Part shown: positions 14,583 through 57,224 of the stretch, in pieces
Numbering within the stretch: position 1 is the stretch's first letter
Layout: each line of letters begins with the position of its first letter
Source: Erythrobacter sp.
GTDB lineage: Bacteria; Pseudomonadota; Alphaproteobacteria; Sphingomonadales; Sphingomonadaceae
DNA length: 64,000 nucleotides
NCBI GenBank assembly: GCA_027311945.1
Contig: DAICXZ010000006.1
Span: 1 to 64,000 of the forward strand
Direction of reading: 5' to 3'
Program-made: the position numbers and the translations under genes
The notes under the pieces: generated by a model
Seen by the model: the letters and a program-made list of their open reading frames with translations, nothing else
What the model was told of the DNA's origin: nothing
Database searches by the model: none

Positions 14583-14596
14583 TGGTAGCGCTATCA
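14583..14596. promoter_or_regulatory. LacI-type operator 1, TGGTAGCGCTATCA
   Basis: A near-palindrome with the central CG typical of LacI/GalR binding sites, between the divergent GH43 and xylX starts. It is one of six matching sites in the island. It begins about 38 bases before the chosen xylX start and could control both directions. Confidence 0.75.
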
Positions 14597-14620
14597 AGGG
14601 CGAGGGCAAGAGCAACGGCA

Positions 14621-15742
14621 ATGGCCGAAAATCTGGAATGCATGTTGCCGGAGGATTACCGGCAGGGAACCTTTATCGGACGCGCTTTGTCGCCCGATGG
14701 ACCAGTGGTTATCACCATACGCGAAGGCGAGCTGTTCGATCTGACTGAACGCTGCGCGAGCGTGTCGGGAGCGGTCGCGCGGCGGGAATTCGCGGGCGGC
14801 GTGGCACTCGGCCCGGTGAGCGAAGGCTTGCCGGAGGGCTGGACGCTGCTGTCGCCGGTCGATCTGCAGGCGATCAAGGCGAGCGGCGTTACCTTCGCAA
14901 TCTCGGCCATCGAGCGGGTGATCGAGGAACGGGCGCGCGGCGACTCGGCCAAGGCGGCGGAAATCCGCACGATGCTGGAAGAGCAGGTCGGCGCGATTCG
15001 CGAAGTCGTGCCCGGCAGCGAAGAGGCGATGCGCCTGAAGGAGCTGCTGATCGGCCAGGCGATGTGGTCGCAGTATCTCGAAGTGGCCATCGGCCCGGAT
15101 GCGGAGATTTTCTCCAAGTCGCCCGTGCTTTCCACCGTTGGTGCGAATGCGCTGATCGGGGTGCGCTCGGATTCGAGCTGGAACAACCCCGAACCCGAAG
15201 TTGTGCTGGTGTGCGACAGCGCGGGCGAAGTGGTCGGCGCGACGCTCGGCAACGATGTGAACCTGCGCGATTTCGAGGGCCGCAGTGCGCTGCTGCTGTC
15301 GAAGGCGAAGGACAACACGGCCTCGTGCTCCATCGGCCCGTTCATTCGCCTGTTCGACGACACCTTCGGCATCGACGATGTGCGCAGCGCGATTGTCGAT
15401 CTCAGGATCGACGGGCCGGAAGGCTATGTGCTCGAAGGCAGCAACGACATGAGCCAGATCAGCCGCGATCCGCTCGATCTGGTGGCGCAGTGCCTGTCTG
15501 AGCATCATTATCCCGACGGCTTCGTGCTGTTCTGCGGCACGCTGTTCGCGCCGGTGCAGGATCGCGATGCGCCGGGCGCAGGCTTTACGCACAAGATTGG
15601 CGACAAGGTCGCGATTTCGTCGCCCCGGCTGGGGCGTCTGGTGAACGAGGTGACCACCTCGCGCGACGCTCCGGCCTGGACGATGGGCATTGCCGCCTTC
15701 GTCCGCAATCTGGCCGGGCGCGGTCTCATTGAGAAAATCTGA
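14621..15742 (+). CDS. xylX: FAH-family 2-keto-3-deoxy-D-xylonate dehydratase (XylX type)
   Basis: A 373-aa fumarylacetoacetate-hydrolase-fold protein of the XylX branch (RALSPDGPVVITIREGELFDL at the start; GVRSDSSWNNPEPEVVLV and GNDVNLRDFEGRSALLLSKAKDN in the core). It should dehydrate 2-keto-3-deoxy-D-xylonate (or L-arabinonate) to alpha-ketoglutarate semialdehyde, the fourth Weimberg step. Glu/Asp metal ligands of the fold are plausible in NPEPEVVLV. ATG 14621 is preferred because the frame further upstream is the antisense of GH43; an in-frame ATG at 14582 overlaps the operator. It is the first gene of an operon with the xylose dehydrogenase and lactonase. Confidence 0.88.
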   Translation: MAENLECMLPEDYRQGTFIGRALSPDGPVVITIREGELFDLTERCASVSGAVARREFAGGVALGPVSEGLPEGWTLLSPVDLQAIKASGVTFAISAIERVIEERARGDSAKAAEIRTMLEEQVGAIREVVPGSEEAMRLKELLIGQAMWSQYLEVAIGPDAEIFSKSPVLSTVGANALIGVRSDSSWNNPEPEVVLVCDSAGEVVGATLGNDVNLRDFEGRSALLLSKAKDNTASCSIGPFIRLFDDTFGIDDVRSAIVDLRIDGPEGYVLEGSNDMSQISRDPLDLVAQCLSEHHYPDGFVLFCGTLFAPVQDRDAPGAGFTHKIGDKVAISSPRLGRLVNEVTTSRDAPAWTMGIAAFVRNLAGRGLIEKI

Positions 15743-15830
15743 CGTGGTGCAGGCAAGCCTCGAGGCACCGGCATTGATGTCAGCGAGCCGCCTTCGCGGC
15801 GGGCAAACAGATACAGGAGAAGACGTCCAG

Positions 15831-16616
15831 ATGAGTTCAGGCGAGCGCGCCGCAACGGGATCGGGCGCAATCTATCCCTCGCTGACCGGCCGCAAGGTGA
15901 TCGTCAGTGGCGGAGGATCCGGCATCGGGGAAGGCATTGTGGAGGGTTTCGTCAGGCAAGGCGCTGCCGTCGCTTTCGTCGACTTGCAGGAAAAACCGAG
16001 CGAGGCATTGGTCGAGCGGCTGAGTGATGCCGCCGTGCCGCCCATCTTCATGGCCTGCGATATCACCGATGTGACCGACTACAGCGCCAAGATCGCCAGC
16101 CTGATCGAGCGGCTCGGCGGGTGCGATGTGCTCGTCAACAATGCCGCCAACGATGATCGCCACAAGGTCGGCGAAATCACGTCCGAATACTGGGACGAGC
16201 GGATGGCGGTGAACCTGAAACACCAGTTTTTCGCTGCCAAGGCGGTGGTGCCTGCCATGCAGTCGGCCGGCGGCGGGAGCATCATCAACCTTGGCTCGAT
16301 CAGCTGGCATCTGGGCCTGGACGATCTTACTATCTATCAGACTGCCAAGGCCGCGATCGAAGGGCTGACCCGCAGCCTTGCGCGTGAGCTGGGACGCGAT
16401 AATATCCGGGTTAACACTATCGTGCCCGGCAATGTTAAAACCCCGCGCCAGATGCAGTGGTACACCCCCGAAGGAGAGGCGGAGATCATGTCGCAGCAAT
16501 GCCTGAACGGCCGCCTCCAGCCGCGTGACATCGCGGCCATGGCGCTGTTCCTGGCCTCGGACGACGCGCGCTTCTGCACCGCGCACAATTACTGGGTGGA
16601 CGCCGGATGGAGATGA
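15831..16616 (+). CDS. NAD-dependent D-xylose 1-dehydrogenase (SDR)
   Basis: A 261-aa short-chain dehydrogenase that oxidises D-xylose to xylonolactone, step one of the Weimberg path. It has the cofactor motif SGGGSGIG, NNAANDDRHK, the catalytic Ser (NLGSISWHLGL), Tyr and Lys (YQTAKAAIEG) and a C-terminus ending WVDAGWR. The pattern closely follows the Caulobacter xylose dehydrogenase, also called XylB there, so the symbol is omitted to avoid confusion with xylulokinase. ACAGGAGAAG precedes the ATG. It overlaps the lactonase gene by 10 bases. Confidence 0.93.
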   Translation: MSSGERAATGSGAIYPSLTGRKVIVSGGGSGIGEGIVEGFVRQGAAVAFVDLQEKPSEALVERLSDAAVPPIFMACDITDVTDYSAKIASLIERLGGCDVLVNNAANDDRHKVGEITSEYWDERMAVNLKHQFFAAKAVVPAMQSAGGGSIINLGSISWHLGLDDLTIYQTAKAAIEGLTRSLARELGRDNIRVNTIVPGNVKTPRQMQWYTPEGEAEIMSQQCLNGRLQPRDIAAMALFLASDDARFCTAHNYWVDAGWR

Positions 16617-17491
16617 CGCCGCCGGTCGAGGTTGTGCTTGAAACCGGGTCTCTGCTCGGCGAGGGCGTAGTGTGGGACCAGACGCGCGCGGCCCTGTGGT
16701 TCGTCGATATCAAGCGGCACCAGCTCTGGCACTGCGATCCCGCCAGTGGCGAGCACTGGCATGCCGAAGCGCCGGGCCAGATCGGCTGGGCGCTGCCTGC
16801 CGAAGGCGGGCTGCTGCTGTGCGGGCTGGCTGACGGGCTTTACACGTTCGATCCGGGCAGCCGCAGCTTCGAATTGCTGACCCGATTGGCGCAGGAACCG
16901 TCGCACAATAGACTCAACGATGCCTGCACCGATCCCTGGGGCCGCGTCTGGTTCGGCTCGATGGATGATGGCGAAAGTGCGGCCTCGGGCCGGTTCTATC
17001 TGTTCGACCGGGGCGATGTGCGGACGATGGGGCCGGCGGGCATTGCCATCACCAATGGCCCGGCGGTGAGTCCGGCGGGCGACCGGATCTACTTCACCAA
17101 TACGCTGGCGCAGACCATCACGGTCGCCGAGCTTGGCCCCTCGGGGCTAGGTGACGTGCGGCCGTTCGTGGATGTCGGCGCGCTGTTTCCCGATGCCTAT
17201 CCCGATGGGCCGGTGGTCGATGGCGAGGGCTATCTGTGGAGCGGGCTTTATAACGGGGGCGGTCTCGCCCGGTTCGATCCTGACGGGCGGCTGGTCGATT
17301 TCTGGGCCATGCCCGTGCGCGATATAACCAAGATGGCATTCGGAGGAGAGTCCATGCGGACCGCTTTCGTCACCACGGCAACGAAGAACCTCGCCCCCGA
17401 AGAGCGGGGCGACTGGCCGCTGGCGGGCCACTTGCTGTCGTTCCAGGCGCCGGTTGCGGGCGTCGCCCATGCCTTGGTGAAACTGGCATGA
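16607..17491 (+). CDS. xylC: SMP-30/gluconolactonase-family xylonolactonase
   Basis: A 294-aa six-bladed propeller of the SMP-30/regucalcin family, expected to open xylono-lactone to xylonate between the dehydrogenase and the dehydratase. Family marks are the metal-ligand Glu in LGEGVVWDQ, HNRLNDACTDPWGRVWFGSMD and ITNGPAVSPAGDRIYFTNT. The start overlaps the dehydrogenase stop and the stop overlaps the next start by ATGA, so the operon is tightly coupled. Cytoplasmic, no signal peptide. Confidence 0.9.
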   Translation: MEMTPPVEVVLETGSLLGEGVVWDQTRAALWFVDIKRHQLWHCDPASGEHWHAEAPGQIGWALPAEGGLLLCGLADGLYTFDPGSRSFELLTRLAQEPSHNRLNDACTDPWGRVWFGSMDDGESAASGRFYLFDRGDVRTMGPAGIAITNGPAVSPAGDRIYFTNTLAQTITVAELGPSGLGDVRPFVDVGALFPDAYPDGPVVDGEGYLWSGLYNGGGLARFDPDGRLVDFWAMPVRDITKMAFGGESMRTAFVTTATKNLAPEERGDWPLAGHLLSFQAPVAGVAHALVKLA

Positions 17492-19416
17492 GCGCGCGCC
17501 TGAGCCGCTGGCTGCTGGCCCCGCTTGCTGCCACCGCGATGCTGGGCGCAGCCGCGCCCGCCGCCGCCCGACCGAGCCTTGCGCCGGTGTGGGGCGAGGG
17601 TGCGGTGATCCAGCGCGGCATGGTCGTCGAGGTGCAGGGCTATTCCGAGCCGAATGCACGCATCACCGGCGTGCTCGGCAGCGATCGCGCCAGCACCAAG
17701 GCCGATGGCTCGGGCGCCTTCGTGCTCAGTTTCCCCTCGCGCCCGGCCAGCGCCGAGCCAATCACGCTCGAAGTGACCGACGCCGATGGCGCAACCAAGG
17801 TCGGCGGGCTGGTGACCGGCGATGTCTATCTCTGTTCGGGCCAGTCGAACATGGCCTTCACCGTCGCCGCAGGGCTGAACGGAGGCAACAACATTCGCAC
17901 CAGCAGCGATCCGCTGCTGCGGATGCTGACCGTTCCGCTCGCGACCGCTGCCGTGCCCGCGCGTGATTTCGATGGTGCGGTGGAGTGGCAGGCAGCGTCG
18001 CCCGAGACCACGGGCGAGTTCTCCGCCGCCTGCTACTACATGTTGCGCGCCTTGCGGGCCGCCGAAGATGTGCCGATGGGCGCGATCCATGCCAGCTGGG
18101 GCGGCTCGCAGATCCGGCCATGGCTGTCGCCGGAAGCGGGCGCTGAGCTATATGGCGATGAGGATATGGCCCTTCTGACGGGCTTTGCCGCAAACCCGGT
18201 CGCCGCCGCAGCGGCCTTCGCACCGCGCTGGCAGGACTGGTACAGCGCGGCCGCAGGCGGTTCGCAGCCATGGGCGGAGCCTGACAGCCTTGCGTGGAAG
18301 CCCGTGGCCCGCATCGCGCCATGGACCAGCTGGGGCGAAGGCGCGCCTGAGCCAATCGGCAATGTCTGGTTCCGTCGCACGATCGAACTTAGCCCTGAGC
18401 AGGCTGCTGCGGGGGGCACCGTCAATATCGGCATTATTGACGACCTCGATGCGACATGGATCAACGGCCATCCGCTCGGCTTCAACCACGGCTGGAGTAC
18501 GGAGCGTGAATATGCCGTGCCTGCCAGCTACTTGAAAGCGGGGGCCAACGAACTGGTCTTCGCCGCATCGAACAGCTGGGATCAGGCCGGAATGCAAAGC
18601 CCGGCGGATCGCCTGTCATTCACCGTGGCAGGGGGCGAGCGCCTGTCGCTGGCCGAAGGCTGGCGCTATGCGAGCAGTCCGGTGACCGACATGCCGCCGC
18701 GCGCGCCATGGGATGTGAACGCGGGCATCGGCGTAATGCACAACCGCATGATCGCGCCCATCGGTGCGTTCTCGCTGAAGGGCGCAGCCTGGTATCAGGG
18801 TGAGAGCGACGTCGGCCAGCCCGGCTATGACGACCGCCTGCGCGAACTGGTGGCCGGCTGGCGTCGCCAGTTCGGGCCGCAAATGCGGATGCTGGTGGTG
18901 CAACTGGCGGGCTATGGCGAGCCGACCTCGAGGCCGGGGCCGAGCGGTTGGGCCGATCTGCGCGAGATCGAGCGCAAGGCTGCTGTTGCCGACGATAACG
19001 CCGCGCTGGTGACAGCCATTGATCTTGGCGAATGGAGCGACATCCATCCGGCCAACAAGGTGCTGCTCGGCCAGCGGCTGGCGCTGGCTGCGGCGGGATC
19101 GCCGCTGCCGATGCCGGTTTCCGCGCAGATTGTGCCCGCGAGTGCCGACAAGCCTGCCGAGGTGGCGGTACGCTTCTCCGGCGTGGAAGGCGACCTTACC
19201 AGCTGGAGCGGGGCCGCGCTCGGTTTCGAGCTGTGCGGCACGAGCGACGAGAGTTGTGCCTACGTTTCGGGTCGCGCTGAAGGCGATAGCGTTTTCCTGC
19301 CGCTTGATGGTCGACAGGTAACGCGGGTCCGCCATGCATGGGCCGACGCGCCGGTCGTCAATGTCTACGATGAGCGCAAGGTCGCCATTCCGGGCTTCGA
19401 ACTGGCGGTGGACTAA
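17488..19416 (+). CDS. Secreted SGNH/SASA-type acetylesterase with inserted jelly-roll domain (CE20-like)
   Basis: A 642-aa protein with a signal peptide ending near AAAARP. The sialate-O-acetylesterase-type SGNH fold is split: the oxyanion/nucleophile block is VYLCSGQSNMAF (about residue 115) and the closing blocks are GAAWYQGESDVG and LGEWSDIHPANK (about 510). Between them sits a sugar-binding-like jelly roll (about 285-380, WFRRTIELSPEQ to SWDQAGM). This inserted-domain architecture is known for CE20 xyloglucan/xylan acetylesterases from Xanthomonas. ATGA overlap with the lactonase indicates the same operon. The role is probably removal of acetyl groups from xylan or xyloglucan. Confidence 0.82.
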   Translation: MSARLSRWLLAPLAATAMLGAAAPAAARPSLAPVWGEGAVIQRGMVVEVQGYSEPNARITGVLGSDRASTKADGSGAFVLSFPSRPASAEPITLEVTDADGATKVGGLVTGDVYLCSGQSNMAFTVAAGLNGGNNIRTSSDPLLRMLTVPLATAAVPARDFDGAVEWQAASPETTGEFSAACYYMLRALRAAEDVPMGAIHASWGGSQIRPWLSPEAGAELYGDEDMALLTGFAANPVAAAAAFAPRWQDWYSAAAGGSQPWAEPDSLAWKPVARIAPWTSWGEGAPEPIGNVWFRRTIELSPEQAAAGGTVNIGIIDDLDATWINGHPLGFNHGWSTEREYAVPASYLKAGANELVFAASNSWDQAGMQSPADRLSFTVAGGERLSLAEGWRYASSPVTDMPPRAPWDVNAGIGVMHNRMIAPIGAFSLKGAAWYQGESDVGQPGYDDRLRELVAGWRRQFGPQMRMLVVQLAGYGEPTSRPGPSGWADLREIERKAAVADDNAALVTAIDLGEWSDIHPANKVLLGQRLALAAAGSPLPMPVSAQIVPASADKPAEVAVRFSGVEGDLTSWSGAALGFELCGTSDESCAYVSGRAEGDSVFLPLDGRQVTRVRHAWADAPVVNVYDERKVAIPGFELAVD

Positions 19417-19442
19417 GCGCCAGATACCCTTATCCACCTTGC

Positions 19443-19556: not shown

Positions 19557-20633
19557 CTAGCCGGGCCGCCGCTGTAGCAGGCTCGGCGCGGTGTCGCTGT
19601 CGCGGCGGATCAGTTCGTAAGGCATGATATGCGCTTCGGGGCTGGCGTTGCTCACCCCGCGCTTGCCGCGCAGCATCGTCGCCGCAGTCCGCACCGCCCA
19701 GGCAGTCATCTCGCGGATCGGCTGGCGGATCGTGGTCAGCTCGGGCCATACCGAGCGGGCCAGATCGGTATCGTCGAAGCCGCAGACGGTGAGGTCGGTC
19801 GGAACCTCCAGATGGCGGCGATGGGCCATGGCGACGGTCGCGGCGGCCATGTCGTCGTTCGAGGCAAAGATTGCGGTGGGGCGTGGATCGACCGACAGCA
19901 GCTTCTCCGCCGCATCCATGCCCGAACGGTAGGTGAACCGCCCTTGCGCAACCAGCCGGTCGTCGATTTCGAGCCCCGCGTCTTCCATTGCCTTGCGAAA
20001 ACCGTCGAGCCGCAGCGACGAGGCGACCTGCTGCGGGTTGCCGACAATGAACCCGATCCGCCGGTGGCCGAGGCCGATGATGTGGCTGGTCATGTCGTAT
20101 GCGGCCTGGAACTCGTCGATCAGCACCGCGGCGCCGTTGCCGCTTGCCGCGCCCGGCCCCACGGCGATGGCGATCGCGCCGCTGTCGATGATGAGATCGA
20201 GGATCGACTGGTCGTCGGACAGCGGCGGCGGGAGGATGAAGCCGCGAAAGCCGCCGGAAATGAGGCGCGAGATGATGGCCTTGCCGTCCTCCTCGCCATC
20301 TCCGGCAACCGACTGCACCACCACCTGCAGCCCGCTGCGGTTGGCTTCTTCCAGCGCGCCCATCAGGAACTCGGCGAGATAGGCGGTCGAGGGGTTGTCG
20401 TAGAGCAGGGCGATCCGCTGCTGCTCGCCCGCCGCGAGGCTGCGCGCGGCGCGGTTGGGGCGATAGTCGAGCTTCTTGATCGCCTTCAGCACCGCCTCGC
20501 GTGTGGCGGTGCGCACGCCCGCCTCGTCGTTGATCACGCGGCTCACGGTCATGGGTGAGCAGTTGGCCTCGCGTGCAACATCGCTGATGGTCGGCTGGCC
20601 GGATTGCCGGCGTCTCGGTCTGCTCGCGCTCAT
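19557..20633 (-). CDS. LacI-family transcriptional repressor, probable xylose/xylan regulator
   Basis: A 358-aa LacI/GalR protein. The N-terminal helix-turn-helix is PTISDVAREANCSPMTVSRV with the hinge helix RAARSLAAG, followed by a periplasmic-binding-protein-like sensor domain with GHRRIGFI, AIFASNDDMAAA and CGFDDTDLA. It lies 93 bases behind GH67 on the same strand, so read-through from the GH67 promoter, which has a LacI-type operator, would give autoregulation. Six operators of the family type lie in front of xylose and glucuronoxylan genes, making this the best candidate repressor. The effector is inferred to be xylose or a xylose-derived sugar. Confidence 0.9.
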   Translation of the reverse strand: MSASRPRRRQSGQPTISDVAREANCSPMTVSRVINDEAGVRTATREAVLKAIKKLDYRPNRAARSLAAGEQQRIALLYDNPSTAYLAEFLMGALEEANRSGLQVVVQSVAGDGEEDGKAIISRLISGGFRGFILPPPLSDDQSILDLIIDSGAIAIAVGPGAASGNGAAVLIDEFQAAYDMTSHIIGLGHRRIGFIVGNPQQVASSLRLDGFRKAMEDAGLEIDDRLVAQGRFTYRSGMDAAEKLLSVDPRPTAIFASNDDMAAATVAMAHRRHLEVPTDLTVCGFDDTDLARSVWPELTTIRQPIREMTAWAVRTAATMLRGKRGVSNASPEAHIMPYELIRRDSDTAPSLLQRRPG

Positions 20634-20726: not shown

Positions 20727-22823
20727 TCACTCGCCGGGAGCTTCGGGAAAGTCGAGCGCGCGATAGTAGGCGAGATCGTGTTCCGGCGGCACGCTGCCCG
20801 CAGGCATGGGCAGGCCATTGAGCGATTGCCAGTAGGCGATGCTGGCATCGCGCCACCAGCGCGCTTCCTTCGCCTGAATCGCCAGGAAGTCCGCCACATC
20901 GGCGTGGCGACGCGGATCGACCTTGCCCGCCTGCGCGGCCCATGCCGCCTGCATCTCGGCCACGCCCGCTACTCCCGCGTCATAATGGTCGACCAGCGTC
21001 GGCCACAGGCGCTTGCCATCGGGGAAGGCCCAGTCCCACGGCACATGGTGAAACCACAGCAGCAAGCGCGGGTCGGTGGTTTCGGGCTCTGCCCATTGCG
21101 CCGCGACCGAGGGGGCATAGTCAGCCAATGCATCGGTGCCGCTGGCGGTCCGGTCAAAGCCGATGCCTTCGCTATCGGCGCGGTGGTAGTAGCAGGGGTT
21201 CCACTCAGGGCGCGCAAGGTCGCAGACCCACGGCGCGGGGCCATAGTGGTGGCCGGTCGCCATGAGGTGCGCAAGGCCGAGCGGGGTCATGTAATCGACC
21301 ACCATCTCGCGGCTGCGCAGCATCATGGCGGAGACGTCGCTGACGAAAGCGGGATCGCGCGAGAAGGTCTGCATCAGCCATTCGCGCGCGATCTGCTCGC
21401 TTGAAAGCTGCGGGTTCCAGGCGAGCCGGCCGAAGGCATACCAGTTGGCCTGATCGAAATGGCTGCCGCTCCAGTTGCGGGCCGTGCCGATGTTGGCGAC
21501 CCCGGCCATGCCCGCAGGCGCGATGCTGTCGGCCACGGTTCCGCCATGCCCGGTGCTGGTGCCGAGCACTTCCTTCCACAGCGGCGCGAGGTAGGCAAGG
21601 TGGGTGGCAAATCCGAGATATTCCTTGGTGATCTGCGCTTCGAGCGCGACCTTGGTGTGGCGCATCGCGCCGAACAGCGGGTGGAACGGCTCGCGCGGCT
21701 GGAAATCGATCGGGCCATTCTTCACCTGCACGATCACGTTGTCGGCAAAGGAGCCATCGAGGGGGGCGAACTCGCGATATGCCTGGCTGGCGCGGTCGGT
21801 CTCGTCCTCGGCGGCATAGACGAAGGCGCGCCAGAACACCGTGCCACGATCGCCGATGGCACTGGCCAGCATGTTTGCGCCATCGGCGTGGGTGCGGCCA
21901 TAGTCGCCGGGGCCGGGTTGGCCTTCGCTGTTGGCCTTGACGAGAAAGCCGCCGAAGTCGGGAATGGCGGCGTAGATCTCGTCGGCCTTATCGTGCCACC
22001 ACCGGGCAACGTCAGGATCGAGCGGGTCGGCTGTGTCGAGCCCGCCGATGTCGCGCGGCGCGGAAAAGCGCGCGGTGAGATAGACGCGGATGCCATAGGG
22101 CCGCCACGCGTCGGCAAGCCGCGCGAGCCGGGCGATGTAGCGCGGCTCCAGCATCATGGCGCTGGCGTTGACATTGTTCACCACCACGCCGTTGATGCCC
22201 ACACTGGCATTGGCGCGGGCATAGTCGATCATGCGTTGGTCGAGATGGTCGGGCAGGTGCCACCAGTCGAAGATCGAACTTCCGGCATAGCCGCGCTCGA
22301 CCGTGCCATCGGGATTGTCCCAGTGGTTGAGCAGGCGCAGCGGCATGGCCGGGGCGTCTGCCGTTTGGATTTCGGTCAGCCGCGCGCCGGTGTCGAGCAG
22401 GCGGAGCAGCGCGAAGGCACCATAAAGGCAGCCGCTCGGCTCGCCCGCGCGCAGGATTAGCCCGGTGCTGTCGCCGTCAAGCGCGAAGGCGCCGCCACGG
22501 GCGATGGTGGTATCGGCGCAGGAAAGGCGGATCGAGCGGGGCGCGGCGGGCGTGGTCTCGCCAGCGGCCAGTCGGGCAAGACCGCTGCGCAGTTCTGCCA
22601 AGGCCACCGAAACCATTGCTTCGGACTGCGCATCGGCAAAGCTGTCGGGACCGACAACGGTGATCCCTTTCAGCTCAGCTGCCGCTTCGCCGCCGACTGG
22701 CTCGTGCCTGAGCCAGAGATCGTATCCATCCTCCGCGCGAGCCTTCACCGAAGCCAGCAACATGACGAGCAGCGCCAGCCCGAAAGGACTCCACATGACC
22801 AACGATTGACGATTGACAAGCAT
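20727..22823 (-). CDS. aguA: GH67 alpha-glucuronidase, exported
   Basis: A 698-aa GH67 enzyme that removes (4-O-methyl)-glucuronic acid from the non-reducing end xylose of xylo-oligosaccharides. Family phrases include LRLLNHWDNPDGTVERGYAG, SVGINGVVVNNVNA, the catalytic Glu region VKANSEGQPGPGDYGRTH and VQVKNGPIDFQPREPFHP. ATG 22823 is chosen: GGAGAG lies about 5 bases upstream and the N-terminus becomes a clear signal peptide (cleavage near KARA-ED), which many GH67 proteins lack. A LacI-type operator lies 15 bases upstream of the start. LacI follows downstream. Confidence 0.93.
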   Translation of the reverse strand: MLVNRQSLVMWSPFGLALLVMLLASVKARAEDGYDLWLRHEPVGGEAAAELKGITVVGPDSFADAQSEAMVSVALAELRSGLARLAAGETTPAAPRSIRLSCADTTIARGGAFALDGDSTGLILRAGEPSGCLYGAFALLRLLDTGARLTEIQTADAPAMPLRLLNHWDNPDGTVERGYAGSSIFDWWHLPDHLDQRMIDYARANASVGINGVVVNNVNASAMMLEPRYIARLARLADAWRPYGIRVYLTARFSAPRDIGGLDTADPLDPDVARWWHDKADEIYAAIPDFGGFLVKANSEGQPGPGDYGRTHADGANMLASAIGDRGTVFWRAFVYAAEDETDRASQAYREFAPLDGSFADNVIVQVKNGPIDFQPREPFHPLFGAMRHTKVALEAQITKEYLGFATHLAYLAPLWKEVLGTSTGHGGTVADSIAPAGMAGVANIGTARNWSGSHFDQANWYAFGRLAWNPQLSSEQIAREWLMQTFSRDPAFVSDVSAMMLRSREMVVDYMTPLGLAHLMATGHHYGPAPWVCDLARPEWNPCYYHRADSEGIGFDRTASGTDALADYAPSVAAQWAEPETTDPRLLLWFHHVPWDWAFPDGKRLWPTLVDHYDAGVAGVAEMQAAWAAQAGKVDPRRHADVADFLAIQAKEARWWRDASIAYWQSLNGLPMPAGSVPPEHDLAYYRALDFPEAPGE

Positions 22824-22837: not shown

Positions 22838-22851
22838 TGGTAGCGCTATCA
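22838..22851. promoter_or_regulatory. LacI-type operator 2, TGGTAGCGCTATCA
   Basis: Identical to operators 1 and 5 and placed just before the ribosome binding site of GH67, where bound repressor would block transcription. It could also influence the divergent GH3 gene about 260 bases away. Confidence 0.78.
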
Positions 22852-27018: not shown

Positions 27019-27032
27019 TGGTAGCGCTACCT
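27019..27032. promoter_or_regulatory. LacI-type operator 3, TGGTAGCGCTACCT
   Basis: A palindromic LacI-type site about 38 bases upstream of the symporter start, inside the gap between it and the end of the GH9 gene. The only gene it can control on the minus strand is the transporter. Confidence 0.75.
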
Positions 27033-29650: not shown

Positions 29651-29690
29651 CTCTTTGCTCCCTTGCGCCAATGCGCTCTGGTGAATGCTG

Positions 29691-31148: not shown

Positions 31149-31156
31149 GGCGGGCC

Positions 31157-31843: not shown

Positions 31844-31873
31844 CGCAATATCCTCGGATCGTTGCTGGGCGGG

Positions 31874-32849: not shown

Positions 32850-32863
32850 TGGTAGCGCTATCT
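32850..32863. promoter_or_regulatory. LacI-type operator 4, TGGTAGCGCTATCT
   Basis: Upstream of the esterase operon on the minus strand, just downstream of the likely -10 (TATAGA or TAATTA). Five bases separate it from the GntR-type motif, so the promoter appears to answer to both regulators. Confidence 0.75.
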
Positions 32864-34834: not shown

Positions 34835-34835
34835 G

Positions 34836-37882: not shown

Positions 37883-37897
37883 TAGCCTCCCACTGGC

Positions 37898-37930: not shown

Positions 37931-37948
37931 TCGCGATGAAATGGCGAA

Positions 37949-44375: not shown

Positions 44376-44388
44376 ATTTGTAGGAGTA
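44376..44388 (+). promoter_or_regulatory. GntR-type motif copy 4 (ATTTGTAGGAGTA)
   Basis: Plus-strand ATTTGTAGGAGTA lies between divergent GH51 and the beta-helix protein, about 70 bases before the latter's start and 64 bases before the former's. A possible -35/-10 pair is TTGCAT with CATGAT, 18 bases apart. Confidence 0.55.
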
Positions 44389-46599: not shown

Positions 46600-46613
46600 T
46601 GGTAGCGCTATCA
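46600..46613. promoter_or_regulatory. LacI-type operator 5, TGGTAGCGCTATCA
   Basis: Identical to operators 1 and 2, 43 bases before the GH43 lipoprotein that heads the xylB-xylA operon. Confidence 0.78.
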
Positions 46614-46656: not shown

Positions 46657-47784
46657 ATGCGGATTGGTTTGGTATCATGTGCGGCGCTGAGTCTCGCCCT
46701 GGGTCTGGGTTTGGCCGGGTGCAGCGAGCAGGCCGAGGATGCGGACGCTGTCGCCAAGGCCGACGAGCCGTTGTCGCCTGACGGCAAACCCTATCTGGCG
46801 CAGCCGCTGGTCACCGAAATCTACACCGCCGACCCCTCGGCCCATGTGTTCGACGGCAAGATCTACATCTACGCCAGCCACGATATCGACGCGGGGATCG
46901 CCGATGACGACCTCGGCAACCAGTATGCCATGCGCGACTACCGCGTGTTGAGCATGGACAGTATCGGCGGCCCGGTAACGATTGGCGAAGTGGCGCTCGA
47001 CGTGGACGATGTGCCCTGGGCCTCGCAGCAGATGTGGGCACCCGATGCGGCCTACAAGAACGGCACCTACTACCTCTATTTCCCCGCACGCGACAAATCG
47101 AAGGACAAGAACGGCCTCGGCGCGTTCCGCATCGGTGTCGCCACCTCGGACAACCCGATGGGGCCGTTCACGCCTGAAGAGAACTACATTGAGGGCAGTT
47201 ACTCGATGGACCCGGCGGTGTTCACCGACGACGATGGCACCAGCTACATGTATTTCGGCGGCATCTGGGGCGGCCAGTTGCAGCGCTGGAAGGACGGCGT
47301 CTACGATCCCAACGGCTCGGACACCGATCTGCTCCAGGACGATCAGCCCGCGATCATGCCGCGCGTGGCGCGTATGGGCGATGACATGAAGAGCTTTGCC
47401 GAGCCGGTGCGCGAGGCGCTGATCGTCGATAAGGAAGGCAACCCTATCCTCGGCGGCGATCATGACCGGCGCTTCTTCGAGGCGGCCTGGGTCTTCAAGC
47501 GCGGCGGCAAGTACTACTTCACCTATTCGACCGGCGACACGCACTATGTGAACTATGCCATCGGCGACACGCCCTATGGCCCGTTCACCTATCAGGGCCA
47601 TATCCTTGAGCCGGTACAGGGCTGGACCTCGCATCACTCGATTGTCGAATGGGATGGCCGCTGGTGGCTGTTCTACCACGATACGCAGCTGAGCGGCAAA
47701 AACCACCTTCGCAACGTCAAGGTCACCGAGCTGACCTTCAACGAAGACGGTTCGATCCCGACCATCAACCCGTTCCGCGACTGA
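46657..47784 (+). CDS. GH43 beta-xylosidase/arabinofuranosidase lipoprotein
   Basis: A 375-aa lipoprotein (lipobox LAGC, Cys about residue 22) with a single GH43 propeller. The base Asp lies in YTADPSAHVF, the second Asp in YSMDPAVFTDDDG and the acid Glu probably in RRFFEAAWVFKRGG. AGGAGA lies 7 bases before ATG 46657; the frame extends 8 codons further up without a signal. The stop overlaps the xylulokinase ATG by one base, so a cell-surface or periplasmic xylosidase is translationally linked to the intracellular isomerase route. Confidence 0.88.
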   Translation: MRIGLVSCAALSLALGLGLAGCSEQAEDADAVAKADEPLSPDGKPYLAQPLVTEIYTADPSAHVFDGKIYIYASHDIDAGIADDDLGNQYAMRDYRVLSMDSIGGPVTIGEVALDVDDVPWASQQMWAPDAAYKNGTYYLYFPARDKSKDKNGLGAFRIGVATSDNPMGPFTPEENYIEGSYSMDPAVFTDDDGTSYMYFGGIWGGQLQRWKDGVYDPNGSDTDLLQDDQPAIMPRVARMGDDMKSFAEPVREALIVDKEGNPILGGDHDRRFFEAAWVFKRGGKYYFTYSTGDTHYVNYAIGDTPYGPFTYQGHILEPVQGWTSHHSIVEWDGRWWLFYHDTQLSGKNHLRNVKVTELTFNEDGSIPTINPFRD

Positions 47785-49235
47785 TGTTCCTCGGGATCGA
47801 CATCGGCACCTCCGGGGTCAAGGCCGTCGCGCTGGACGAGACCGGCGCGGTCGCCGGGCAGGGCACCGCTGCGCTGAGTGTGCAGCGGCCCCGGCCCGGC
47901 TGGTCGGAGCAGGACCCGGAAGGCTGGTGGCGCGCGACCACGGCGGCGGTGCAGGCGATCGATCCGGCGGTGCGCCGTGCGGTGCGCGGGGTGGGGTTGG
48001 CCGGGCAGATGCACGGCGCGACCTTGCTCGGCGCAGACGACAAGGTGCTGCGCCCGGCGATCCTGTGGAACGACGTGCGCAGCCATGAGGAATGCGCCGA
48101 GCTGGAGGCAGCCGTTCCGGCTCTGCGCGAAATTGCGGGCAATATCGCCATGCCCGGCTTCACCGCGCCCAAACTCGCCTGGGTGCGCAAGCACGAGCCC
48201 GAGCTGTTCGCGCAGATCGCCAGCGTGCTGCTGCCCAAGGACTATGTCCGCCTGCGGATGACTGGCGACAAGGCGAGCGACCTTTCCGATGCAGCGGGCA
48301 CCTTGTGGGTCGATGTGGCGAACCGGTGCTGGAACGACGAGATACTCGCCGCCACGGGCCTTACCAAAGCGCAGATGCCCGCGCTGTTCGAGGGCAGCGA
48401 GGCTACCGGCACACTGCTCCCCGAGATTGCCGAATTATGGGGGATGCCCGCGGTGGCCGTTGTGGCCGGCGGCGGGGACAATGCTGCCGGCGCAGTCGGC
48501 GTGGGCGTGGTGGGCGAGGGCGATGCGCTGTTGTCGCTCGGCACTTCAGGGGTGATCTTCGTTGCCACCGAGAGCTTCCGGCCCAACCCGGCGCGCGCTG
48601 TCCATGCCTTCTGCCACTGCCTGCCCGGGATGTGGCACCAGATGAGCGTTCACCTGTCTGCCGCCTCGTGCATCGACTGGGTCGCGCGGCTGACCGGAGC
48701 CTCGGGCGCGGCAGAGCTGTTTGCCCGCGCCGAGGATACCGGGCCGGGCAGCGGCAACGAGCTGTTCCTACCCTATCTCTCGGGCGAACGCACCCCGCAC
48801 AACGATGCCCATGTGCGCGGCGCTTTCCTCGGGCTCGACAACGATACCGATGCCGGACGGCTCGCGCAGGCGGTGCTTGAGGGCGTTGCCTTTGCGCTCG
48901 CCGACGGGCTCGATGCCCTGCGCGATGCGGGCACCAGCGTCAGCGAGCTGGCGGTGATCGGCGGCGGCGCGCGCTCGAGCTACTGGGGGCGCATTATCTC
49001 GGCGGCGTTCGAAGTGCCGCTCGTTTATCTGAAGGGCGGCGAAGTCGGCCCGGCGCTGGGCGCTGCCCGGCTGGCGCAGATGGCTGTCGATGGCGGCAAC
49101 CCGAGCGATATCTTCGCCCAACCGCCCGTTTCTCACCGGATTGAGCCCGAGGCCGCGCTGATTGACCAGCTTGGCCCCCGCAAGGCTGCGTTCCGGCTCG
49201 CCTACCCCCGCATTACTCCGAAGAAAGGCCTCTGA
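47784..49235 (+). CDS. xylB: Xylulokinase
   Basis: A 483-aa FGGY-family kinase that phosphorylates D-xylulose to xylulose 5-phosphate. It has [18 protein letters not shown] at the N-terminus, [12 protein letters not shown] with the xylulokinase MHG signature, [24 protein letters not shown] and the C-terminal [14 protein letters not shown]. Its start and stop each overlap a neighbour by one base (TGATG), giving strict coupling with the GH43 and with xylA. Cytoplasmic. Confidence 0.95.
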
Positions 49236-50557
49236 TGTCTGCCGCACCTGAATATTTCGCCGAGTTCCCCGTCATCGCCTTCGAGGGCGAGGAGACCTCC
49301 AACGAACTCGCCTACCGCTACTACGACAAGCAACGTATGGTGCTGGGCAAGACCATGGAAGAGCACCTGCGCTTCGCGGTGTGCATGTGGCACACCTTCT
49401 GCTGGCCCGGCTCCGACGTGTTCGGCGGTGGCACTTTCGACCGGCCCTGGATGACCCACCCCAACGGCACCGAAGCCGCCGCTTTGAAGCGCGCCACCGC
49501 GCTCGATTTCGTGCGCAAGCTCGACCTGCCGTTCTACTGCTTCCACGATGTCGACGTGATGGAGCCCGCCGCTGACGTCGCGCAGTATCAGCGCAACTTC
49601 GGCACCGCGGTCGACCATCTTGAACAGCTGCAAGGCGAGACGGGCCGCAAGCTGCTGTGGGGCACGGCCAACCTGTTCTCCGATCCGCGCTATGCCGCCG
49701 GGGCTGCGACCAGTCCCGATCCCGAAGTCTACGCCTGGGCGGCGCTTCAGGTGCGCTCGGCGCTCGATGCGACGCACCGGCTGGGCGGGGCTAACTATGT
49801 GCTGTGGGGCGGCCGCGAGGGTTACGAGACGTTGCTCAACACTAACCTTTCGCGCGAACTCGATAACTTCGGCCGCTTCCTCAACCTCGTGGTCGAGCAC
49901 AAGCACAAGATCGGCTTCACCGGCACGATCCTGATCGAGCCCAAGCCGCACGAGCCGACCAAGCACCAGTACGATTTCGATACCGCCACCGTTTACGGTT
50001 TTCTCAAGCGCTATGGCCTTGAAAACGAGGTCTGCGTGAACATTGAGGCCAATCACGCCACGCTGTCGGGCCACACCTTCGAACATGAAATCGCCATGGC
50101 CAATGCGCTGGGCATTTTCGGTTCGATCGACGCCAACCGGGGCGATCATCAGAACGGCTGGGACACCGACCAGTTTCCCAACTCCATCGAGGAAGTCACG
50201 CTGGCGATGGTCGAGATCATCCGGGCAGGCGGCTTCACCACCGGCGGGTTCAACTTCGATGCCAAGGTACGCCGCCAGTCGGTCGATGCCGATGATTTGC
50301 TGCACGGGCATATCGGCGGTGTCGACGTGATCGCGGCGGGCCTGCTGGCAGCCGAGCGGATCATCAAGGATGGCCGGATCGATGCCTTCCGCGCCGAGCG
50401 CTATGCGGGTTGGGACGGCGAACTGGGCCGCAAGGTGCATGCCGAGGGCACTTCGTTGGCCGATTTGGCTGATCTGGCCGTCGCCCAGAACCTTGCGCCG
50501 CGCCACCGTTCGGGCAAGCAGGAGCGGCTCGAAAATCTGGTCAACCGGCTGGTCTGA
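49235..50557 (+). CDS. xylA: Xylose isomerase
   Basis: A 440-aa class II xylose isomerase converting D-xylose to D-xylulose with two divalent metals. Active-site features are [18 protein letters not shown], the catalytic His in [61 protein letters not shown] and GSIDANRGD. The length is normal. Overlapping start with xylB and a hairpin 14 bases after the stop define the operon core. Confidence 0.97.
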
Positions 50558-50570
50558 GCGACGATAATAT

Positions 50571-50606
50571 CGCGCGGAGCGGGCCGCAAAACGGCTGCTC
50601 CGCGCG
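50571..50606 (+). terminator. GC-rich hairpin between xylA and the epimerase gene
   Basis: A perfect 10-bp stem (CGCGCGGAGC and complement) with a 16-base loop. Without a U tract it is more likely a partial stop or an mRNA 3'-stabilising structure than a full terminator. Confidence 0.5.
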
Positions 50607-50657
50607 CAGCAGAGCAATAGGGGCGAGCACAGGCTCGACCTTTGTGGGAGAGGTCAG

Positions 50658-51812
50658 ATGAAGCGAATTTTGGGAACATTTGCGGTTGCCTGCGTGCTGG
50701 TGGCAAGCCCTGCCATGGCCGCAGACGCGGTGCGCGAAGAGGCCGGAACCATGCCCGATGGCAGCGTGGTCGAGGCGGTTGTCCTGTCCAATGCCAATGG
50801 CGTTTCCGCGCGCGTGCTGACCTATGGCGCCACGCTTCAGTCGCTTACCGCACCTGATCGTGACGGGAACCCCGCCGACATCACGCTGGGCTACGATGAC
50901 GTCACCAAGTACCAGACCCATCCCAACTATTTCGGCGTTACGGTGGGCCGCTATGCCAACCGCATTGCCGATGGTGCCTTCTCGCTCGATGGACGGCGAT
51001 ATCAGCTGATCCAGAATGACAAGACCAACTCGCTGCACGGCGGCGCTTTGGGTTTCGACAAGCGCATGTGGCGGATCGTCTCGGTTGAATCCGGGCCTGT
51101 CGCGCGGCTGGTGCTGGCTTTGACGAGCGAAGATGGCGATCAGGGCTATCCGGGCAAGCTTGAGGTTACCGTCACCTACACGCTCGACGATGGCGGCGAT
51201 CTTGGCATCGTGTTCGAGGCGACGAGCGACCGGGCGACCATCGTCAACATGACCAACCACGCGTTGTTCAATCTCGCAGGGCACGATTCCACCGTCGATG
51301 CGATGCAGCACTGGCTTATGATCCCGGCCAGCCGCTACACCCCGGTCGACGAGCGGCTGATCCCCACCGGCGAACTTGCGTCAGTGGCGGGCACCGTGTT
51401 CGATTTCCGCGAACCGCGCGTGGTGGAAGATGGCCTGCGCGACGGCACGAACGAACAGATCGTGCTCGGGCGCGGCTATGACCATAACTGGGTGATCGAC
51501 AAGGGCCGCACCGCTTCTCCCGAACTGGTCGCGCGGCTGGCCGATCCTGCCTCGGGCCGCGTGCTCGACGTGCTGTCGACCGAACCGGGCGTGCAGTTCT
51601 ACACTGGCAACTTCCTCGATGGCACGGTGAGCGGCAAAGGCGGCAAGGTTTATCGCATGGGCGACGGCATCGCGCTCGAACCGCAGCTGTTCCCCGATAC
51701 GCCGAACCAGCCCGATTTCGGCAGTGCACGGGTCGATCCCGAGCATCCTTATCGCCACGAGATGGTCTACCGCGTGCACACCATGGCCGAGGATGCTCCG
51801 GCCCGGCCCTGA
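50658..51812 (+). CDS. Periplasmic aldose 1-epimerase (mutarotase)
   Basis: A 384-aa GalM-family protein with a signal peptide (SPAMAAD). It interconverts alpha and beta anomers of free sugars. It has TYGATLQSLTAPDRDG, GVTVGRYANRIADG, NDKTNSLHGG, the catalytic His in VNMTNHALFNLAGH, and QFYTGNFLDG near the catalytic Glu. Export fits sugars being released and equilibrated in the periplasm before uptake. It sits 100 bases after xylA; GGGAGAGG precedes the ATG. Confidence 0.92.
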   Translation: MKRILGTFAVACVLVASPAMAADAVREEAGTMPDGSVVEAVVLSNANGVSARVLTYGATLQSLTAPDRDGNPADITLGYDDVTKYQTHPNYFGVTVGRYANRIADGAFSLDGRRYQLIQNDKTNSLHGGALGFDKRMWRIVSVESGPVARLVLALTSEDGDQGYPGKLEVTVTYTLDDGGDLGIVFEATSDRATIVNMTNHALFNLAGHDSTVDAMQHWLMIPASRYTPVDERLIPTGELASVAGTVFDFREPRVVEDGLRDGTNEQIVLGRGYDHNWVIDKGRTASPELVARLADPASGRVLDVLSTEPGVQFYTGNFLDGTVSGKGGKVYRMGDGIALEPQLFPDTPNQPDFGSARVDPEHPYRHEMVYRVHTMAEDAPARP

Positions 51813-55539: not shown

Positions 55540-55571
55540 AGCTCTCGCAAAAGAAGGCGCGGGAGACCTGG

Positions 55572-57140
55572 TCAGCGAACCTTGAGCTTGCCGTCGACGC
55601 GAACCGGGAACCAGTCGACGCCTTCGCGCAGCGGGCTCGGCAGAAGCTCGGCGGGCATGTCCTGATAGGATACGGGCCGTACGAAGCGATCAATCGCCAT
55701 GGTGCCGACCGAGGTGCTGCGTCCGTCGGACGTTGCGGGGAATGGCCCGCCATGGACCATGGCGTGCGTCACCTCCACGCCAGTAGGCCAGGCATTGGCT
55801 ATCACGCGGCCGGCCAGCCGTTCGAGCACCGGGACCAGATTGGCGGCGGCGGGATGGTCGGCTTTTACCATGTGTAGCGTTGCGGTTAGCTGGCCTTCCA
55901 TCTCTTCGAGGATTTGCTGGACCTCGTCGAGATCCTTGCAGGTGACGACCAGCGAGGCCGGGCCGAACACTTCGTCGGCCAAACCATGGTCGGCAAGGAA
56001 GGTCGCTCCATCGCAGGCATAGACCTGCGCGCGGCCGCACAGGCTGGTGCCGGGTGCGCCAGCGCCGATCAGGCGAACGCCTGAGGTTCCTCCGAGCTTG
56101 GTGCTGCCGCTGTCGAAGGCCTGTGCGATTCCGCCGGTCAGCATGGTGCCCGCCGGGACTTCGGCAATAGCCTCGGCAACGCCTTCAAGGAAGCGGTCGC
56201 AATCCGCGCCCGCAAGCGTCAGCACGATCCCCGGATTGGTGCAGAACTGGCCGACGCCCATGCTGAGCGAGCCGACATAGGCCTTGGCCAGATCGCCAGC
56301 GGCCTCGGCCAGCTTGTGCGGCATCAGGATCACGGGGTTGATGCTGCTCATTTCGGCATAGACCGGGATCGGCACCGGGCGGGCGGCCGCATGGCCCATC
56401 AGGGCAAGCCCGCCTGCGCGCGAGCCGGTGAAGCCGACGGCGGCAATGCGCGGGTCTTTCACCAGTGCTTCGCCCAGCTCGTTGGACGGGCCGTGAAGCA
56501 GCGAGAACACGCCGCCCGGAAGACCCGCAGCCTCCACCGCCTCAGCGATAGCGCCGGCCACCAGTTCAGAGGTGCCGGGGTGGGCGGGATGGGCCTTGAC
56601 CACGACCGGGCAGCCTGCCGCCAGCGCGCTCGCGGTGTCACCTCCGGCGACCGAGAAGGCGAGCGGGAAGTTGCTTGCGCCGAACACCGCCACTGGGCCG
56701 AGCGCGATCTTGCGCAGCCGCAGGTCGGGCTTGGGCGGGGTGCGGGCCGGATCGGCATGATCTACCCTCAGGTCAAGCCAGCCGCCCTGCTCGATCTCGT
56801 CGGCGAACAGGCGAAGCTGGCCGACCGTGCGTCCGCGCTCGCCGGTGAGGCGTGCTTCGGGCAGGCCGGTTTCCTGCATTGCCAGCTGGGTGAGGGTGTC
56901 ACCAAGCGCATCGATGCGCGCGGCAACATCCCGCAGGAAGGCAGCGCGGTCGGAGGCTTTGAGCGTCGACAGGGGCCGCAGCGCAGCGGCCGCAGCGGAA
57001 CAGGCATCGCTTACATCGGCCTCGCTGGCGATGGCGAAGGCTTCGCCGAACTCTTCACCGCTGGCGGCATCCTTCGCGCGGAAGGTTTGCGCCGAGCCTC
57101 GACGAGTGCCAGCTACGAAATTTTCTCCGGTGATTGTCAT
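55572..57140 (-). CDS. Alpha-ketoglutarate semialdehyde dehydrogenase
   Basis: A 522-aa aldehyde dehydrogenase that should oxidise alpha-ketoglutarate semialdehyde to alpha-ketoglutarate, the common last step of oxidative xylose and arabinose breakdown. Catalytic positions are Asn157 (GASNFPLAFS), Glu263 (YAEMSSINPV) and Cys300 (GVGQFCTNPG). The sequence type (GENFVAG, PVYAEMSSINPVI, VTHAMVHGGPFPATSDGRSTS) is that of KGSADH enzymes in sugar-acid operons. It has its own LacI-type operator 71 bases upstream, and the arabinose-operon promoter lies just after its stop. Confidence 0.9.
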   Translation of the reverse strand: MTITGENFVAGTRRGSAQTFRAKDAASGEEFGEAFAIASEADVSDACSAAAAALRPLSTLKASDRAAFLRDVAARIDALGDTLTQLAMQETGLPEARLTGERGRTVGQLRLFADEIEQGGWLDLRVDHADPARTPPKPDLRLRKIALGPVAVFGASNFPLAFSVAGGDTASALAAGCPVVVKAHPAHPGTSELVAGAIAEAVEAAGLPGGVFSLLHGPSNELGEALVKDPRIAAVGFTGSRAGGLALMGHAAARPVPIPVYAEMSSINPVILMPHKLAEAAGDLAKAYVGSLSMGVGQFCTNPGIVLTLAGADCDRFLEGVAEAIAEVPAGTMLTGGIAQAFDSGSTKLGGTSGVRLIGAGAPGTSLCGRAQVYACDGATFLADHGLADEVFGPASLVVTCKDLDEVQQILEEMEGQLTATLHMVKADHPAAANLVPVLERLAGRVIANAWPTGVEVTHAMVHGGPFPATSDGRSTSVGTMAIDRFVRPVSYQDMPAELLPSPLREGVDWFPVRVDGKLKVR

Positions 57141-57210
57141 GGGGTCTCCCAGTTTCTCTCTTGCAAACGAAGCGGCTCTGGCACGTTTTGGCGATAGGCC
57201 GCACTCTCGA

Positions 57211-57224
57211 AGGTAGCGCTACCA
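57211..57224. promoter_or_regulatory. LacI-type operator 6, AGGTAGCGCTACCA
   Basis: A palindrome (GGTAGCGCTACC core, perfect) upstream of the semialdehyde dehydrogenase on the minus strand. The peptidase on the other strand starts 120 bases away and is unrelated to sugars. Confidence 0.75.

Follow-up and report, generated by a model that had tools for sequence, protein, structure and literature searches.

Six 14-bp palindromes in a 64,000 nt window of an Erythrobacter sp. genome (the window being the whole stretch of DNA analysed) are, with a probability of about 0.92, the operators (xyl-boxes) of the LacI-family protein encoded at 19557-20633, a XylR that would repress xylose and xylan genes until released by xylose. 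The first-pass annotation of the window had proposed such a six-site LacI regulon. This proposal was borne out, but the system belongs to the already described XylR/xyl-box kind, and the dehydratase of the oxidative xylose route carries no box.

Six palindromes are located upstream of xylose and xylan genes

All six palindromes reported in the first-pass annotation match TGGTAGCGCTAYCW exactly, and three of them are identical:

14583..14596, + strand, putative xyl-box TGGTAGCGCTATCA, between GH43 (−) and xylX (+)
22838..22851, + strand, putative xyl-box TGGTAGCGCTATCA, 14 bp 5′ of the likely GH67 start (22823)
27019..27032, + strand, putative xyl-box TGGTAGCGCTACCT, 37 bp 5′ of the XylE-type symporter
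32850..32863, + strand, putative xyl-box TGGTAGCGCTATCT, 64 bp 5′ of the esterase run
46600..46613, + strand, putative xyl-box TGGTAGCGCTATCA, 43 bp 5′ of GH43-xylB-xylA (likely start 46657)
57211..57224, − strand, putative xyl-box AGGTAGCGCTACCA, 70 bp from the aldehyde dehydrogenase (−) and from a DPP IV-type peptidase (+)

The sites lie in promoter gaps as annotated, entirely outside gene models and 14-70 bp 5′ of likely start codons; about 7.8% of the 14-mers in window 1-62004 are outside gene models. With up to two mismatches and both orientations counted, the window contains 17 matches to the box pattern, compared with a mean of 0.72 and a maximum of 4 in 100 shuffles. The window was also scanned with a matrix built solely from 27 sites of four relatives, and the best 20 places of the scan were kept. 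The six boxes rank top (22.0-25.5 bits), followed by 35008 (18.0 bits, within a TonB-receptor ORF), 44222 (12.6 bits, within GH51) and 1688 (12.1 bits, within acrB), and the rest of the best 20 score <5 bits. Positions 44222 and 1688 were rejected as boxes because of their low scores and location inside genes.

It is uncertain whether 35008 (TGGTAGCGGTAACA) should be counted as a seventh box in the window, acting on the TonB receptor. It is located at codon 13 in the reading frame and is kept in the related genome G097, but this conservation could be coding.

Few comparable sites exist in the rest of the genome

When one mismatch was allowed, the whole genome (3.04 Mb) contained the six window sites, an exact match at C19:90501 and a one-mismatch match at C4:156690, and no others. 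Instead of many equal sites in unrelated coding regions, we thus found just two more, one preceding a GH127 gene and the other a gene for a Gfo/Idh/MocA oxidoreductase. The six window sites are real, but the regulon has at least eight sites genome-wide. The perfect palindrome TGGTAGCGCTACCA was found at 83 places with up to three mismatches: 7 with one, 6 with two (including 32850) and 70 with three. Three of the five other places in the two-mismatch class are on C1 (once) and C33 (twice), away from the listed targets.

A reversed pattern served as the control. In the same genome it gave 9 and 8 matches with up to one mismatch vs 8 and 7 for the real pattern, 583 vs 83 with up to three mismatches, and 1 vs 7 with none; in the family genomes it occurred 0-3 times per strand. 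Since the reversed control can be as frequent as the real pattern, match counts by themselves are no proof of a motif, which is supported instead by promoter-gap positions, targets and conservation.

The same box precedes genes of both xylose routes

The predicted targets in the window are as follows:

12875..14527, − strand, GH43 of beta-xylosidase type (PF04616, PF17851)
14621..15742, + strand, xylX, FAA-hydrolase family, 2-keto-3-deoxy-pentonate dehydratase type (PF01557, 28.2 bits, cut-off 23.9)
15831..16616, + strand, D-xylose 1-dehydrogenase, with an inferred start (NF053674, 439.1 bits, cut-off 400)
16607..17491, + strand, SMP-30/gluconolactonase-type lactonase, xylC type (PF08450)
17488..19416, + strand, SASA-type carbohydrate esterase, last of the xylX run (PF03629)
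20727..22823, − strand, GH67 alpha-glucuronidase, upstream of lacI (PF07488, PF07477)
25581..26981, − strand, sugar porter of XylE type (PF00083; TIGR00879 over cut-off; NF007484 358.7, below its cut-off of 608)
27128..32785, − strand, run of four genes behind box 32850, in the following order:
31874-32785, − strand, esterase-like
31157-31843, − strand, gene without an assigned family
29691-31160, − strand, GH43
27128-29797, − strand, GH9-type
46657..51812, + strand, GH43, xylulokinase, xylose isomerase and aldose epimerase behind box 46600 (TIGR01312 and TIGR02630 over cut-off)
55572..57140, − strand, aldehyde dehydrogenase, alpha-ketoglutarate semialdehyde type by context only (PF00171)

The functional link among these targets, claimed in the first-pass annotation, fits their Pfam and NCBIfam assignments, but the XylE-type porter and the semialdehyde dehydrogenase are below the NCBIfam equivalog cut-offs; for the latter, the best 25 of 40 NCBIfam matches are all below their cut-offs. 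In the isomerase route, xylose isomerase (TIGR02630) and xylulokinase (TIGR01312) both exceed their cut-offs. In the oxidative (Weimberg) route, the dehydrogenase exceeds its equivalog cut-off and the other enzymes are assigned by family and neighbourhood only. The present analysis adds that both the isomerase route and the larger part of the oxidative route are probably under the control of this one box.

The dehydratase gene carries a second element

The dehydratase gene has no xyl-box: none was seen by eye in 11400-11620, and none scored >5 bits among the best 20 places of the matrix scan. It is preceded instead by a second rare element, TANTCCTACAAAT, whose three places in the window are listed below the dehydratase gene:

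9671..11455, − strand, IlvD/EDD sugar-acid dehydratase (PF00920; NF009560 over cut-off)
11519..11531, + strand, second element TAGTCCTACAAAT, between the dehydratase and an MFS transporter
32869..32881, + strand, second element TAATCCTACAAAT, 5 bp from xyl-box 32850
44376..44388, − strand, second element TACTCCTACAAAT, between GH51 (−) and a beta-helix protein (+)

The GTG start at 11455 was assigned from homology and a purine-rich stretch upstream, and the protein is 61-63% identical to counterparts in xylX or GH67-lacI runs of relatives. The element TANTCCTACAAA is present in 17 of the 149 family genomes. In four of these (the Erythrobacter genome itself, G097, G081 and G146), at least one match lies in front of a window-cluster gene or an ortholog of one, and in the other 13 no such gene is located within 1.5 kb of the matches. 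Within the window the second element also lies before GH51 and the esterase run, and in relatives it is placed in front of a GH43 gene and of a TonB-receptor gene; we found no known element that it matches.

A single XylR and a single operator might drive both competing xylose routes except for the dehydratase step, which would be passed to TANTCCTACAAAT so that the flux is split by two signals, perhaps xylose and arabinose. We regard this as improbable, because TANTCCTACAAA is sparse near cluster genes and absent from G012 and G098, and because TCCTACAAA is missing from the MFS-dehydratase gap in both G097 and G098.

The boxes co-occur with the LacI-family regulator

The regulator gene is located directly behind GH67, as first annotated, 93 bp downstream on the same strand:

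19557..20633, − strand, LacI-family repressor, putative XylR ortholog by co-occurrence and neighbourhood (PF00356, PF13377 and PF00532 over cut-off)

Among the NCBIfam models, none over its cut-off gives this protein a name. The genome has two LacI-family genes, and the second (C10:14658) adjoins GH68, MFS and GDSL genes; its product is 26% identical to the window LacI and carries SAATVSRALAG in place of SPMTVSRVIND in the recognition stretch. The recognition helix is conserved in relatives: MTVSRV is constant in 18/18 aligned proteins, and SPMTVSRV is found in 16/18.

Among 149 genomes of the family, the box is present in all 14 whose LacI is at least 59% identical to the window protein, in 15 of the 26 with 46-57% identity, and in none of the 109 others (Fisher p ~4e-22 for 29/40 vs 0/109, a value that ignores relatedness). 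The strict box is absent from 11 of the 26 genomes in the middle group, which counts against the regulon reading. The regulator and the box go together within the family, but not at the phylum level: TGKTAGCGCTAMCA, a pattern that omits the TGGTAGCGCTATCA form, occurs in 46 of 397 genomes, and the 49 genomes encoding a LacI at E ≤ 1e-60 include only 12 of these 46, suggesting that the palindrome is used by other regulators too.

In G097, G098, G012 and G129, and likewise in more distant genomes, boxes precede many of the same target genes, and xylX is close to the dehydrogenase in these four. Within the fetched stretches, no box was found immediately before GH67 in G012, and a box before GH43-xylB-xylA was seen just in G097 among the four. 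In 80 named loci, the strict box was found in the fetched flank of 34, all of which neighbour a listed xylose or xylan gene, and was not found in that of 46; the reversed control was found in 0/80. A listed xylose or xylan gene neighbours lacI in 69 loci and is missing from 11. The row lacI-TGTTAGCGCTAACA-xylX recurs in L168-L173, of which five are Caulobacter-titled loci and one is from an alphaproteobacterial MAG. In the genus group that contains G434, which is probably Caulobacter, the best matches mostly share 50-53% identity with the window LacI. In G569, lacI has none of the listed genes nearby, and xylX was not found at L308 and L309.

The assignment of the sites to this LacI protein, marked as inference in the first-pass annotation, is thus supported by elimination between two LacI genes, by the co-occurrence in 149 genomes, and by the neighbourhood and recognition helix, which are conserved in relatives such as the Caulobacter- and Pseudoxanthomonas-titled loci. 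It is very probable that this XylR-type repressor binds all eight sites, and its most plausible identity is XylR, a repressor that xylose releases. The comparison for orthology covered the Caulobacter- and Pseudoxanthomonas-titled loci and the genus group of G434.

Proposed mechanism and alternatives

In the absence of xylose, XylR would occupy each 14-bp box and block transcription. When xylan or glucuronoxylan is cleaved, D-xylose would build up and release XylR from the boxes. Expression of all the targets would then rise in concert: the hydrolases (GH67, GH43 and the esterase run) and the symporter for xylose, xylA and xylB of the isomerase route, most of the oxidative route (xylX, the dehydrogenase, the lactonase and the semialdehyde dehydrogenase), and the GH127 and Gfo/Idh/MocA oxidoreductase genes elsewhere in the genome. 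Given co-transcription of GH67 and lacI, box 22838 would govern lacI as well; since lacI sits behind GH67 and its box, XylR probably represses itself.

The inducer could differ from free D-xylose even if the regulator is right. A xylo-oligosaccharide, glucuronate or an arabinose-substituted product would suit the GH67, GH127, GH43 and esterase-like targets, which judged by family act on substituted xylan. We consider this unlikely, as in L168-L173 the box stands in front of a xylX run whose fetched flank shows no hydrolase gene of those listed, and XylR proteins studied elsewhere are reported to be xylose-responsive. Some LacI-family proteins both activate and repress, and box 57211 is as far as 70 bp from the start codon, so that activation at some boxes could be envisaged. 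This has a very low probability: most boxes are 14-64 bp 5′ of the start codon, where a bound protein is expected to block initiation or elongation, and the XylR of other bacteria is reported to act by repression. CG-centred palindromes are the general shape of LacI-family operators and 34 of the 46 palindrome genomes lack a close relative of the window LacI, but it is least probable of all that the boxes belong to the C10 protein or a non-LacI factor, given the divergence, recognition stretch and neighbours of the former and a co-occurrence that tracks the window LacI.

Comparison with known systems

Repression by XylR released by xylose is known from other bacteria. According to PMC10380989 and PMC7748154, Xanthomonas campestris, X. 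oryzae and X. citri possess a LacI-type XylR and the xyl-box TGGTAGCGCTAACA, which controls xylA (Dejean et al.; Ikawa et al., 2018, as cited there); this box deviates by a single base from the commonest box of the window. None of the xyl-box strings searched for occurs in the text of Blanvillain et al., 2007 (PMC1790865). Expression of xylR is unchanged by xylose in wild-type Xanthomonas according to PMC10380989, whereas self-repression is predicted here. As in the Erythrobacter window, GH67, lacI, xylA and xylB occur together with the box in a Pseudoxanthomonas locus (L208) and in same-phylum loci (L148-L151, L155 and L157). In those loci, however, lacI and GH67 are divergent and xylX was not found in the fetched stretch, whereas here lacI lies behind the box and GH67 on one strand and genes of the oxidative route are boxed.

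XylR of Caulobacter crescentus is a LacI-type repressor released by xylose (Stephens et al., 2007, as cited in PMC10380989), and the lacI-box-xylX row of the Caulobacter-titled loci resembles the present system. Among the genes sought in the fetched flank, those loci show oxidative-route genes only, whereas in the Erythrobacter window the box of the oxidative route also precedes genes of the isomerase route and of xylan hydrolysis. The alphaproteobacterial LacI regulators GluR, BglR, PckR and GapR (PMC4052901) are alike in acting at LacI-family sugar-gene operators, but their targets are genes of central or beta-glucoside metabolism. Among the open-access titles and abstract openings listed, none describes XylR in Sphingomonadales or the control of both xylose routes by one XylR, which is weak evidence of absence.

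The Erythrobacter regulon thus adds a clear-cut case to a type of bacterial sugar switch that is already known and is not a new kind of system. It provides a bounded whole-genome prediction for XylR, comprising a regulator, an operator and eight sites, which can be tested directly, and it tells genes under putative XylR control apart from genes of the same cluster carrying another element. If true, the placing of the isomerase and oxidative routes under one shared operator would help to understand and engineer how bacteria split xylose between them.

Distribution of the xyl-boxes in the window and the genome

The first-pass annotation had placed six palindromes, here called xyl-boxes, at 14583, 22838, 27019, 32850, 46600 and 57211; all are present at these coordinates and three are identical. 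At up to two mismatches, the window contains 17 matches over both orientations, compared with a mean of 0.72 in dinucleotide shuffles. The placement in promoter gaps was likewise borne out, as all six boxes lie entirely between gene models, compared with ~7.8% of 14-mers in window 1-62004.

Xyl-boxes and distances to the likely starts of the adjoining genes
14583: xylX, 24 bp to the likely start codon; divergent GH43 gene, 55 bp
22838: GH67 gene, 14 bp to the likely start codon
27019: XylE-type symporter gene, 37 bp to the likely start codon
32850: esterase-like gene, 64 bp to the likely start codon
46600: GH43-xylB-xylA, 43 bp to the likely start codon
57211: aldehyde dehydrogenase gene, 70 bp to the likely start; divergent DPP IV-type peptidase gene, also 70 bp

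A scoring matrix built from 27 sites in four relatives, with the window sites excluded, ranked the six boxes at the top (22.0-25.5 bits), followed by 35008 (18.0 bits), 44222 (12.6) and 1688 (12.1), and the rest scored <5. The near-box TGGTAGCGGTAACA at 35008-35021 falls on codon 13 of a TonB receptor gene and is kept in the close relative G097; this may represent coding conservation or an intragenic operator.

The assembly holding the window comprises 3,039,334 bases in 33 contigs and is 99.95% complete. Only two further sites at ≤1 mismatch were found in it, one 50 bp ahead of a GH127 gene (C19:90501) and the other 34 bp ahead of a Gfo/Idh/MocA oxidoreductase gene (C4:156690). The perfect palindrome at ≤3 mismatches occurs at 83 places genome-wide, of which 7 differ from it by one base and 6 by two. 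The box pattern read backwards, used as a reversed control, matched or exceeded the real pattern by count at ≤1 mismatch (9 and 8 vs 8 and 7) and gave 583 places vs 83 for the perfect palindrome at ≤3 mismatches, but 1 vs 7 at 0 mismatches. We take the high control counts to reflect the composition of the reversed word. Since the control is as frequent, counts alone are weak proof, and the case is carried by position, targets and conservation.

Co-occurrence of the xyl-box with the LacI-type regulator

The genome encodes two LacI-family proteins (PF00356, E ≤ 0.001), the window LacI protein (19557-20633, minus strand) and one on contig C10, which is 26% identical to it and neighbors GDSL, ceramidase-like, MFS and GH68 genes. 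Among the NCBIfam models scoring above their cut-offs, none names the window protein. We ordered 149 genomes of the family by their best match to this protein, with identity classes set after the lists were seen, at E about 1e-84. The strict box TGGTAGCGCTAHCW is present in 14/14 genomes with a LacI protein at least 59% identical, in 15/26 at 46-57% identity and in 0/109 of the remainder (29/40 vs 0/109, Fisher p ~4e-22, kinship among genomes not corrected for). In some genomes, e.g. G148, the box directly precedes lacI itself. On this sequence evidence the boxes are very probably operators of a XylR ortholog (probability about 0.92), our confidence being slightly lowered by the reversed control.

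Among the matches listed, the best 80 named loci were inspected with flanks of up to 6 kb. A strict box lies in the flank of 34 loci and is lacking there in 46, while the reversed control occurs in 0/80. A xylose or xylan gene from the set looked for adjoins 69 loci, which include all 34 box-bearing ones, and is lacking at 11. The order lacI, TGTTAGCGCTAACA, xylX recurs in five Caulobacter-titled loci and one alphaproteobacterial MAG (L168-L173). Pseudoxanthomonas sp. CF125 (L208) carries GH67, lacI, xylA and xylB plus a box; P. taiwanensis (L243) carries the same genes, the strict box being absent. In an alignment of 18 LacI proteins, MTVSRV is invariant (18/18) and SPMTVSRV is found in 16.

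At the phylum level, TGKTAGCGCTAMCA, a pattern that omits the TGGTAGCGCTATCA form and scores 0 in the window's own genome, was found in 46/397 genomes and a LacI protein at E ≤ 1e-60 in 49/397. The two sets share only 12 genomes, which indicates that similar palindromes are used by other regulators.

Matches to TGKTAGCGCTAMCA number 6, 21 and 7 per strand in G346, G439 and G443, three genomes of family f22 in the same class, and most of the listed ones read TGTTAGCGCTAACA. All three fall outside the set of genomes that hold a close relative of the window LacI protein, which suggests another regulator with the same palindrome.

Box targets in relatives

The comparison with four close relatives (G097, G098, G012 and G129) was confined to the stretches around boxes and lacI. 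The divergent xylX/GH43 gap carries a box in all four. GH67-lacI is directly preceded by a box in G097, G098 and G129; in G012 the boxes closest to GH67-lacI stand before a TonB receptor gene that lies upstream of it. Boxes also precede the XylE-type symporter gene in G097, G098 and G012, GH43-xylB-xylA in G097, a GH43 relative in G098, and TonB receptor genes in G098, G012 and G129. In more distant genomes, drawn from the same class and from the same phylum, the regulator adjoins xylX runs or GH67 with xylA/xylB, and boxes are frequent.

In the window, a TonB receptor gene is flanked by Cupin_8, SapC and 'tryptophan halogenase' genes (33016-39487). Cupin_8 and halogenase-type genes again adjoin TonB receptors, with a xyl-box nearby, in L077, L082, L090, L148, L151 and L155. 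The esterase-GH43-GH9 run behind box 32850 includes a 228-aa protein (31157-31843, minus strand) that is kept in G097 and matches no Pfam or NCBIfam model at E ≤ 0.001. A secreted-looking 701-aa beta-helix protein (44457-46562, plus strand), with a sub-threshold match to a GH141 insertion domain, is encoded between GH51 and GH43-xylB-xylA. In G097, the box and the GH51 match are only ~330 bp apart.

A second element in the cluster

The whole 3.04 Mb genome has three copies of TCCTACAAAT, all of them within the window and in promoter gaps.

Copies of the second element
11519-11531, plus strand: TANTCCTACAAAT, dehydratase/MFS gap; TCCTACAAAT at 11522
32869-32881, plus strand: TANTCCTACAAAT, esterase run, beside the xyl-box; TCCTACAAAT at 32872
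44376-44388, minus strand: TANTCCTACAAAT, GH51/beta-helix protein gap; TCCTACAAAT at 44376
55516-55528, plus strand: weaker copy

TCCTACAAA precedes GH51, TonB receptor and esterase-like genes in G097, a GH43 ortholog in G081 and the MFS ortholog in G146, and TANTCCTACAAA precedes some of the same cluster genes in these three genomes. The element is absent from G012 and G098 and was not found in the dehydratase/MFS gap of G097 or G098. No cluster genes were found near TANTCCTACAAA in 13 of the 17 genomes holding it.

Xylose routes predicted to be under the xyl-box

XylA and XylB score over NCBIfam cut-offs. The oxidative-route genes under the box encode D-xylose dehydrogenase (over cut-off), a lactonase, XylX and an aldehyde dehydrogenase identified to family level only. 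No xyl-box precedes the dehydratase gene (9671-11455, minus strand), whose product is the only close one in the genome, the next matches being 30-35% identical. Its identity is 85-87% with genes in G098 and G097, 78-79% with two in G434, and 61-63% with dehydratases in GH67-lacI or xylX runs (G012, G098 and G434). A dehydratase gene follows lacI in G098, G012 and G129; from the identity figures, the window genome and the G097 stretch lack this gene, which the other three close relatives have.

The window dehydratase belongs to a different group from those in relatives' xylX or GH67-lacI runs. Its substrate could be L-arabinonate, besides or in place of D-xylonate.

Relation to known XylR systems

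According to PMC10380989 and PMC7748154, XylR of Caulobacter and Xanthomonas is a repressor of the LacI type, released by xylose, and the Xanthomonas xyl-box is TGGTAGCGCTAACA. As XylR is already described in these genera and its box in Xanthomonas, the predicted window regulon belongs to a known kind. The predicted XylR operators are ordinary in kind, well supported and cleanly testable; that one box covers both the isomerase route and oxidative-route genes is a little new.
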